This document shows positions 10-18,475 of a stretch of 45,308 nucleotides of DNA, piece after piece. The position numbers and the translations under genes were made by a program. Under the pieces are notes generated by a model that was not told the origin of the DNA, did not search any database, and worked only from the letters and a program-made list of their open reading frames with translations. The first letter of the stretch is position 1, and the number at the start of each line of letters is the position of its first letter. The stretch comes from Bacteroidales bacterium (lineage in GTDB: Bacteria; Bacteroidota; Bacteroidia; Bacteroidales; P3): the NCBI GenBank assembly GCA_017960605.1, contig JAGCYV010000014.1, forward strand, positions 1-45,308, written 5' to 3'.

Positions 10-309
10 CTAGGCGGTGACATACTCCTCGTGCTCCAGGCCGGCCTTCAGCACATCCATGTCTTTCGTGTACTTCTTGTCGGGCTTGGCGATGGCGTTC
101 AGCACGATGGGGCAGTCGTTGTTCTGCATATACTTGTAGATGAGCATGGCGTGGTCGCGCTCTTCCATGGCCTGAATCATGTACCAGTTGGCGAAGCCGG
201 CAAGGCCGCGCTTGTCGAAGTAGTTGTTCATGTCGAGGTACAGGTAGCCGCTGTAGAGTTCTTTGTTGATCTGCTCGTTGAGCAGGTCGGAAACTTTCTT
301 GTTAAGCAT
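10..309 (-). CDS. Ferritin, cut short by an in-frame stop; runs to the window edge
   Basis: The protein is the N-terminal part of a ferritin, the cage protein that oxidises Fe(II) and stores the ferric mineral in the cytoplasm. Ferroxidase ligands are visible: Glu17 in INKELYSGYLYL, then Glu50 and His53 in MEERDHA. Bacterial ferritins are about 160 residues, but a TAG codon at 10-12 stops this one after 99. The three codons still visible beyond the stop read IHT, which continues the usual helix (EEYVTA-L-IHT), so the stop replaces an expected Leu or similar residue. One base change (TTG to TAG) would explain it. The gene may therefore be broken, or the first bases of the window may carry an error. 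It lies downstream of rubredoxin on the same strand, with about 110 bp between them that hold a palindrome. Confidence 0.8.
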   Translation of the reverse strand: MLNKKVSDLLNEQINKELYSGYLYLDMNNYFDKRGLAGFANWYMIQAMEERDHAMLIYKYMQNNDCPIVLNAIAKPDKKYTKDMDVLKAGLEHEEYVTA

Positions 310-2435: not shown

Positions 2436-2703
2436 AATATTATAATATAATTGGATAAACGAGCCCATATTGTTAACCAAAATCGTTGAAGAGGTCGCTC
2501 TCGGTCATTTCGTAAACTATTGTATCAAAGATATCAGACAACACAATTCTCCATTCTTTATCTTAAGAAATGAATAGTCGCTCATGAATTTGAAATAAAG
2601 GGGTTAATCATTAAATAATTATCGGTTCCCGACTATTGAGTCAAAAACCGATGTCTCTACACAAGGGATGAAAAAGGCGTGATTCTTTCGTATTTTTCCT
2701 TAT

Positions 2704-2820
2704 TCTCGTAACAGGTGCTGGTGATACCTTTGAAGCGAATAAGTTGCGAATGATCCACGCCCAAGCGCGAACCTCCCGCAGCCTGTCCTCGCTTCAATAG
2801 TTACCAGCTTTGTTACGAGA
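2704..2820 (-). ncRNA. Rod-like structured element 1, candidate RNA in the leader of the BspA-like gene
   Basis: Three stacked helices are visible: 2704-2713 with 2811-2820 (10 bp), 2717-2722 with 2803-2808 (6 bp), and 2730-2738 with 2789-2797 (9 bp). They are separated by internal loops GGT/TT and GATACCT/TAGTT (plus-strand letters). The apical 50 nt contain a further helix (GTTGCG/CGCAGC) and CCACGCC. A second element at 18212-18339 has different helix sequences but the same GGT/TT loop, TACCT and CCACGCC. Both have a minus-strand promoter upstream, so the minus strand is the likely RNA. The rod shape recalls 6S RNA, but I cannot match it to that family. It may be a cis-acting leader, a free small RNA, or a small mobile element. 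Confidence 0.55.
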
Positions 2821-17598: not shown

Positions 17599-18123
17599 TC
17601 AATGTCTCACCCTTTGGGATAGGCGCCCACTAATGAAGCCGAGTGTGTCAATGCGGTTTGGATAGGTAGCACTCGCGTTATAATTTGTTGTCATCAAACC
17701 CTCTACGGTCAGGTATTTGTCAGTATAGTCGTTCTGTGTATTTTCAACTTCCTCATAGTTCTGTACATTGAGGGTGATTTTCTCCCACCATGTACGACCC
17801 TGTTCGTCTGGAGTTGATGTAAATGTACTTTCGAGGGTATTGCCATTCAGTGTCCATACCTGATGTGTGCGGGTACTGTAATCGGAAATCACATTCATTG
17901 TATGGTTAGCTTTATACTCCAACTTTTTCCCTCCAAGATAGGGTGACGTTGATGGAACGCTCCATGTCCCAATAATGTCGCTTTCCTTGGCTTGAAAGGG
18001 TGCTGGTTCCGTGCCACCACCTGGTGTGTCGGTAGTTGTATCGTCTTTGCCGCAAGAAGCGACCATTAACATTGAGGCTGCCACAAAGAGCATCATTGTA
18101 ATTTTCTTGATGTTTGTTTTCAT
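17599..18123 (-). CDS. Small lipoprotein, possibly lipocalin-like
   Basis: The 174-residue protein starts with a lipoprotein signal (MKTNIKKITMMLFVAASMLMVASC). A Thr/Gly-rich spacer (DDTTTDTPGGGTEP) follows the lipidated Cys. The rest has alternating beta-strand patterns, beginning with DIIGTWSV, which resembles the start of Bacteroidota lipocalin-like domains. I cannot name a ligand or role. It is single on its strand. The promoter at 18446-18475 would give a leader of about 315 nt that contains rod element 2, which parallels the BspA-like gene at 771-2435. Confidence 0.8.
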   Translation of the reverse strand: MKTNIKKITMMLFVAASMLMVASCGKDDTTTDTPGGGTEPAPFQAKESDIIGTWSVPSTSPYLGGKKLEYKANHTMNVISDYSTRTHQVWTLNGNTLESTFTSTPDEQGRTWWEKITLNVQNYEEVENTQNDYTDKYLTVEGLMTTNYNASATYPNRIDTLGFISGRLSQRVRH

Positions 18124-18211
18124 TTCATTATCATTTTACTTCATTAAACCATGTTGTGCCAAGTCGAGGAATATGCACATAAAAAGAGCGTGGCACTTGT
18201 TTGTCTTCATC

Positions 18212-18339
18212 GGTTATTCTGAGGTCTTCGACTACCTATGCTATCCAATTACAACGTACAAGCCCACGCCAAAACAGCGGGAGCGTCGTCACCTCGGTCT
18301 GGATAGCATTCTCGAAAGTGTCGAAGTTTCAGAATAACC
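18212..18339 (-). ncRNA. Rod-like structured element 2, candidate RNA in the lipoprotein leader
   Basis: Three stacked helices: 18212-18222 with 18329-18339 (11 bp), 18226-18232 with 18320-18326 (7 bp), and 18238-18247 with 18300-18309 (10 bp). The first internal loop is GGT/TT, exactly as in element 1. The second has TACCT on the left, also shared. The apical segment (18248-18299) carries CCACGCC 17 bases from its start, the same offset as in element 1. Helix sequences differ between the two, so pairing is kept while sequence changes. A promoter on the minus strand lies about 100 bp upstream, and a lipoprotein gene begins 88 bp downstream. Confidence 0.55.
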
Positions 18340-18445
18340 AGATTTCAGCTATTTCGCTTTTTCCTATTCTCTGATGTGCATACTAAAACTATGCGCTATG
18401 CTTCATCTGCAAATATTTTTGTTAATACTCATTTAATATCGACTG

Positions 18446-18475
18446 CAAAAATACACACTTTTCCCGACATACAAA
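18446..18475 (-). promoter_or_regulatory. Minus-strand promoter for rod element 2 and the lipoprotein
   Basis: TATTTTTG (18446-18453) and TTTG (18472-18475), 18-bp spacer, followed by GCAGTCG as in the promoter of rod element 1. Confidence 0.75.

Follow-up and report, generated by a model that had tools for sequence, protein, structure and literature searches.

The elements at positions 2704-2820 (element 1) and 18212-18339 (element 2) of the window, by which we mean the whole 45,308-nt stretch of DNA analysed here, are copies of one structured-RNA family, read on the minus strand. Each is probably the leader of the gene that follows it, and probably acts as a transcription attenuator. The original prediction was of an undescribed structured RNA with covarying helices; beyond it, the element has two competing folds, and the genes behind it include defence genes.

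Two elements of one structured RNA family

A covariance model, R1, was built from an alignment (A4) of 28 same-genus copies and comprises 178 positions and 47 pairs. Element 1 and the C68 copy were included, element 2 was not, and L021, L030 and L033 were dropped as duplicates or near-duplicates. Elements 1 and 2 are assigned to one family because R1 recovered two sequences that are not in the model: element 2 (18182-18351) at 28.7 bits (E 7e-5 for 51.8 kb) and the C19 copy at 47.9 bits. The genome of origin, which is 78% complete, holds at least five copies; its C68 copy matches element 1 at 91%, its C19 copy matches element 2 at 81%, and its C4 copy scores 60 bits. A MAFFT alignment of four own-genome copies misaligned two subtypes and was not used. 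On the minus strand, elements 1 and 2 fold with z scores of -7.7 and -6.4, none of 200 shuffles of either being as good; the plus strands of both fold too (z -6.9 and -5.6, respectively).

All features given below lie on the minus strand. In the rod, helix P1 joins 2811-2819 to 2705-2713 and helix P3 joins 2789-2797 to 2730-2738, both being placed by rod covariation, while segment x (2765-2773; helix 6 of the rod count) pairs with segment y' (2747-2761). Across the 28 copies, 89.9% of the cells are paired, as compared to 78.9% after shuffling, and double changes number 151, as compared to 42 in shuffled and at most 44 in slid versions; these and the other permutation and shuffle statistics on the family ignore the relatedness of the copies. 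The helices thus covary as predicted, and the further copies with compensatory changes that were to be sought with a covariance model were found. The predicted rod is real, but the unit is longer than 2704-2820. It extends from a Bacteroidota-type promoter -7 box of the TAnnTTTG form (TACTTTTG; 2896-2903) to a T run at 2671-2675, and the full R1 match (2671-2844; 173.5 bits, element 1 being one of the 28 model rows) covers a 5' hairpin, the rod, the 3' half of a terminator and the T run.

In both elements the rod loops consist of AA facing ACC, AGGT(A) in the right-hand side of the second loop, and GGCGTGG close to the apex. The original prediction regarded these fixed loop sequences as unpaired. 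The sequences are as it gave them, but they need not be single-stranded: in a second fold AGGT can pair with ACCT, and the two covary, with the compensatory variants GGGC/GCCC (L015), GGAT/ATCC (L144) and GGCT/AGCC (L150).

Two mutually exclusive folds

In this second fold, each arm of the rod forms a hairpin. Within the left arm, segment A (CTTGTC; 2823-2828) pairs with segment B (GAGGACAGG; 2782-2790; placed by the left-hairpin count), with 98.1% of the A-B cells paired, around a loop, CTGGTAA (2801-2807), that is complementary to the loop of the right hairpin. A small 5' hairpin, GAGC/GCTC, lies at 2828-2840 (helix 1; 89.3% of cells paired), and its GAGC can alternatively pair with segment x. 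Pairing of B with segment C in an extended rod was considered and dropped; B fits A better, with matching changes in element 1, L002 and L012, and C fits segment D. Covariation in the left hairpin (A with B, P4', and the 5' end with x) was counted in 64 hand-picked sequences out of 108 (129 loci minus 21), the most distant left arms being left out of the alignment. In this set, 93.9% of the cells are paired versus 88.5% after shuffling, and there are 76 double changes versus 24.1 shuffled and at most 25 in slid versions.

On the right side, segment z' (2676-2690), the 3' half of the terminator stem, is complementary to the apical segment y' and is followed by the T run. Between them, segment C (CTTATTC; 2737-2743) pairs with segment D (GAATAAG; 2699-2705), and helix P4 (AGGT/ACCT; 2713-2729) closes the right loop ATCACCAGC (2717-2725). 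When the right halves, from y' to the T run, were folded alone, a terminator stem of at least 8 closing pairs was found in 93 of 99 own-family copies, one of the 100 copies being left out as it has no y motif. With near-duplicates removed, the stem was found in 72/75, as compared to 256/1500 dinucleotide shuffles. The mean y'/z' pairing was -15.5 kcal/mol for own partners versus -11.8 kcal/mol for permuted partners, and none of 5000 permutations was as low; the same was true of C/D (67 rows, 0/5000). Helix P4 taken alone was weak in the permutation test (4/5000 as low, with 60 of 75 rows extracted, a few of them by a wrong match). For the terminator fold as a whole, 70 sequences were counted (the 100 own-family copies minus 23 distant ones and 7 near-duplicates). 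Here 89.8% of the cells are paired versus 85.2% shuffled, with 94 double changes versus 34.8 shuffled and at most 36 in slid versions; some counted pairs often fail, namely the innermost counted y'/z' pair (in 27/70) and the two outer C-D pairs (in 37/70 and 31/70). In other orders, the right-half fold closes y' with z' in all 19 copies read. At least 6 T in the terminal 8 nt were present in 78/100 copies of the own family, 30/30 of other families and 18/19 of other orders, counts that carry no shuffle control, and within the genus the run is often interrupted (TTTCTT). A hairpin with a T run directly behind it is thus found ahead of the gene, as in an intrinsic terminator.

Element 2, which fell below the selection cut, was not part of any counted set. 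Its y' lies at 18258-18270 and its z' with the T run at 18181-18200, and when folded singly it gives -62.6 kcal/mol for the full element and -28.7 kcal/mol for the right half. In element 1, a terminator-like scan with alignment by eye located a second hairpin (2621-2652) between the T run and the gene. Several loci of the same genus, such as L012, L016 and L024, have a similar hairpin, often as CGGCTTCC...GGAAGCCGAAAACTGC, and in L008 the second hairpin resembles, by eye, a second terminator.

The two folds draw on shared bases: x-y competes with y'-z', A-D and B-C compete with A-B and C-D, and P2 competes with P4 on account of the short distance. The rod state and the two-hairpin state are taken as alternatives because of this sharing. 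The middle helix of the rod, P2, is the pairing between the loops of the left and right hairpins, which are of complementary types (CTGGTAA and TTACCAG). A docked state, in which both hairpins persist and P1, P2 and P3 pair between them, may also be possible. Thus, the family carries a conserved and mutually exclusive antiterminator fold, in that rod and terminator share bases and both covary.

A putative transcription attenuator

In the proposed attenuator, RNA polymerase would start at the TAnnTTTG promoter and transcribe first a minimal reading frame and the left arm, then y' and the right arm, and finally z' with the T run. If self-pairing of the left arm comes first (A with B, and the 5' end with x), y' would stay free to pair with z' around the right-arm hairpin, which would create the intrinsic terminator and leave the gene off. 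If the two arms pair together instead, through the loops (P2) first and then through P1 and P3, x would take y', and the resulting rod would block the terminator and let the polymerase read into the gene. Averaged over 129 copies, the predicted energy is -62.2 kcal/mol for the rod and -50.5 kcal/mol for the halves folded separately, with the two states within 5 kcal/mol of each other in only 19 copies. Because the rod is the more stable on paper, the leader would always read through unless kinetic trapping or a factor intervened; the left hairpin could form first during transcription despite the more stable rod. We infer that the terminator works in the cell, that "off" is the default reached fastest because the left hairpin forms early, and that some signal tips the balance.

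Translation of the minimal frame (ATG, one codon, stop) is the likeliest input, although as a choice it is tentative. In element 1 this frame reads ATG AAA TAA (2870-2878). A frame of ATG, no or one codon, and stop is found in 63/68 same-genus copies in 16 spellings, and in 31/35 after removal of similar upstream regions, while dinucleotide shuffles of the 68 copies gave a mean of 18.5 and a maximum of 27 in 300 rounds. The corresponding counts were 11/30 in other genera of the family (shuffle mean 5.0, maximum 11) and 12/30 in other families (shuffle mean 4.5, maximum 12, 500 rounds), so the excess is clear only in the window's genus and weaker outside. One spelling, ATGACATAA, is also seen in other families (L222, L232, L236 and L237). 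Element 2 and its C19 relative (L004) have identical five-codon frames instead of the start-codon-stop form (ATGAAGCATAGCGCATAG, encoding MKHSA; 18389-18406 in element 2). Codons for one sensed amino acid are absent from the same-genus frames, whose single codon varies or is missing, and a frame of this kind is therefore unable to report on any one amino acid.

Next in likelihood would be a protein or a ligand acting on the left arm, either to open it or to hold it. Control by an RNA-binding antiterminator or terminator protein that recognises the 5' hairpin and left arm (the GAGC hairpin and CTTGTTCTC) is conceivable, if doubtful. Within the left half, primary sequence is most conserved in these parts, and a shared trans-acting factor would account for a single leader type ahead of many unrelated genes, but the conserved left segment is also constrained by its pairings.

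Genes behind the probable leader

The gene behind element 1 (771-2435; alternative starts at 2468 and 2480) encodes a BspA-type leucine-rich-repeat protein with an exported-looking start (Pfam LRR_5, E 1.8e-20), and the gene behind element 2 (17599-18123) encodes a protein that has a lipoprotein-like start by eye and matches no Pfam family. The genes behind the leader are accessory: BspA-like proteins, exported proteins and TonB receptors, joined outside the genus by restriction-modification methyltransferases. Pfam was run on 89 first genes (88 of 93 plus the element 2 gene, with L009, L062, L086, L092 and L149 left out), and the best 25 of 49 families include at least six BspA-type leucine-rich-repeat proteins and at least three TerB. 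The first genes in the same genus include Zorya ZorA (L043), a TmtA-like gene (L089) and a restriction-helicase-like gene (L076). The related second frames, as judged by eye, of L002, L006 and L016 lie behind leaders whose first frames differ, and that of L002 weakly matches the restriction-endonuclease family REase-ARP.

At least 13 of the 53 first genes scanned outside the genus encode restriction-modification DNA methyltransferases (types I, II, IIG and III); these pooled gene scans cover the best 25 of 98 families, which makes their counts lower bounds. The methyltransferases are L150, L153, L155, L159, L163 (an 87-residue piece), L164 and L167 among 24 proteins from L148-L173, and L212, L213, L216, L219, L226 and L227 among 29 proteins from L211-L240. 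As a control, 50 neighbouring genes on the upstream side of the same 57 loci were scanned, and no model named methyltransferase matched them at 1e-8. They did match 20 PADLOC families, including one mad2, one restriction enzyme and several "PDC" candidates; the mad2 model also scores with methyltransferases in these loci. It is therefore the methyltransferases, not defence genes as such, that distinguish the downstream side, because upstream neighbours also match defence models. In other orders, Pfam identified TonB receptors in 3 of 10 proteins scanned, and PADLOC was applied to 9 of 19 proteins, hand-picked by eye, of which 4 match methyltransferase models. A small helix-turn-helix (HTH)-like protein of 69-83 aa lies directly behind the leader in L158, L162, L218 and L225; the four are alike by eye, and the Pfam HTH cut-off is passed by L162 only.

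A ligand-binding riboswitch, in which the rod with its internal loops would be the aptamer and a small molecule would decide between rod and terminator, shares the terminator/antiterminator anatomy of the element and, like it, would be expected before different genes in many copies. We consider it unlikely, since the downstream domains listed have no common pathway and few unpaired positions are invariant, because several internal-loop bases of the rod pair and covary in the other fold.

Promoter and position before genes

The predicted setting, a leader flanked by a promoter on the minus strand and an exported-protein gene, was borne out. A -7 box lies upstream and a same-strand gene downstream. 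The box of element 2, TATTTTTG, is at 18446-18453. In the own family, TANNTTTG is found no more than 130 nt upstream in 67/97 copies, as compared to a mononucleotide-shuffle mean of 4.5 and 17/97 on the opposite strand, and a promoter box is also upstream in 18/30 copies from other families and 16/19 from other orders. Between the T run and the gene, a box is present in 4/97 copies of the own family, 1/29 of other families and 0/18 of other orders, figures that have no control for short gaps. Of 98 copies, 92 share their strand with the longest downstream frame and 5 lie opposite to it. The gene begins within 55 nt of the element in 26/97, 13/29 and 12/18 copies, respectively, and the median distance is 98 nt in the own family, 58 nt in other families and 49 nt in other orders. 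With a promoter upstream, few boxes between and a same-strand gene near, the element is most likely the leader of that gene.

These figures also bear on the alternative that promoter, rod and terminator produce a free small RNA of ~220 nt that acts in trans, with the genes incidental. It would account for the element having its own promoter and terminator-like end, and for the homology between the two genomic copies of each kind, which spans about the promoter-to-terminator unit. Nevertheless, we regard it as very unlikely: a same-strand gene follows in 92/98, few promoter boxes lie between T run and gene, where there is little room for another promoter because the gene is so often within 55 nt, and a conserved second fold that undoes the terminator would have no obvious purpose in a free RNA.

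Distribution of the RNA family

A DNA search with element 1 gave matches in 63 of 120 same-genus genomes. Genomes with an R1 match number 157/190 in the bacterial family (in 11 of 12 genera), at least 110/393 in the order (70 of 206 genera) and at least 38/295 in the class (24 of 156 genera), and 33 of these 38 belong to other orders; the wide scans undercount because their filters were stricter and their candidate limits small, and their counts are lower bounds. R1 also gives antisense matches, which arise because the rod is nearly self-complementary, and ten of these were removed from 110 aligned rows before the counts were made. Genomes carry up to 15 copies of the leader. Clusters on one contig were seen at G149:C6 84040-95425, G136:C98 12877-13897 and G266:C66 1249-2541. 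An exact conserved 21-mer occurs in 37 named stretches from uncultured Bacteroidales or Bacteroidetes genomes, many of them labelled ruminant gut.

A mobile repeat or recombination site (a folded single-strand, integron-type site or a miniature transposon) spreading with accessory genes would likewise be multicopy, several per genome, with variable helices and accessory cargo, but it is highly improbable in view of the strand-asymmetric signals (promoter, T run and gene) and the two alternative RNA folds, and a search that covered element 1 and the 21-mer found no DNA similar to element 1 in plasmid and phage collections and no exact 21-mer in IMG/VR. No sign was seen of the transposon end that the original prediction had named as a possible refutation.

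Returning to the attenuator, we speculate on what such leaders might do throughout the class. Perhaps, across Bacteroidota, a start-codon-stop frame is read by an initiating and terminating ribosome, not for an amino acid, and thereby sets a two-hairpin kinetic switch, so that surface-protein, accessory and phage-defence genes (restriction-modification, Zorya) come on when translation is disturbed, for example by phage takeover. We hold this idea with considerable doubt. As an attenuator, the element would be a regulatory RNA of very wide distribution in Bacteroidota, with copies in most of the genomes searched from the window's family and also outside its order within the class, and many genes of unknown control, restriction-modification systems included, would fall under one RNA mechanism. 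The conserved frame would also raise the question of whether a ribosome that merely starts and stops can be a regulatory signal in bacteria.

Comparison with known RNAs and regulatory systems

The description of the RNA as undescribed agrees with Rfam 15, in which no family reached its gathering score on element 1 or element 2. A relaxed search gave weak microRNA- or snoRNA-like matches only, far below the cut-offs; Plastid-rpoB, mir-3578 (on the plus strand, overlapping element 1), and mir-5882 and others near element 2 were rejected as far below gathering scores. In 40 further loci of other families and orders, no Rfam match overlapped the element. Among the neighbouring features, a DUF805 RNA (RF03081) lies close behind the leader in L220 (1408-1341, minus strand), and L236 has a DUF805b match just below threshold further along from the leader (2698-2732, plus strand) and a group II intron domain upstream of it (208-283, plus strand).

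6S RNA is free-standing and usually encoded by one or two genes per genome. Together with 6S (RF00013; 6S-flavo, RF01685) and Bacteroidales-1 (RF01693), the element shares the form of a long rod-like RNA in Bacteroidota, but it matches neither, and differs in being multicopy, in having a gene behind it, and in its second fold with a terminator. A 6S match, which was to count against the original prediction, was absent from the window in both strict and relaxed searches, and the copies examined stand before genes, with at least five here and up to 15 per genome elsewhere. The Bacteroidales-1 model had no match in the 78% complete genome of origin. Flavo-1 (RF01705), a Bacteroidetes motif of unknown function, is also a multicopy structured motif in Bacteroidota; no Rfam match, however, overlaps the element in the window or in the 40 further loci, and the element is oriented, whereas Flavo-1 matches are reported to fall indistinctly sense or antisense (PMC9723704).

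Two studies bear on such leaders: long 5' UTRs of Bacteroides contain short frames reminiscent of leader peptides (PMC7366714), and structured 5' regions of Flavobacterium have no Rfam matches (PMC9723704). These 5' regions could include copies of the leader family. In Rfam and the papers searched (including PMC9723704, PMC2864571, PMC8040213 and PMC7366714), we did not find the leader family, the two-arm antiterminator, the start-stop frame or the mixed gene set, although unnamed candidates, such as those in the supplementary tables of PMC8040213, may include the family.

The principle of mutually exclusive terminator and antiterminator is already known. Terminating riboswitches and T-boxes are two-state leaders with an intrinsic terminator at the end and many copies per genome. 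The element resembles them as a multicopy, two-state leader with a terminal intrinsic terminator, but it has no recognised aptamer or specifier, no common downstream pathway and no Rfam riboswitch match. Leader-peptide attenuators such as trp have exclusive hairpins, the later of which is followed by a T run, and a short 5' reading frame. The element likewise has exclusive hairpins, a T run after the later one and a short 5' frame before the gene. In contrast to trp-type attenuators, the same-genus frame has nothing but a start, no more than one codon, which varies, and a stop, the antiterminator is a rod of two arms, each able to form a hairpin with a loop complementary to that of the other, and one leader family stands before many unrelated genes.
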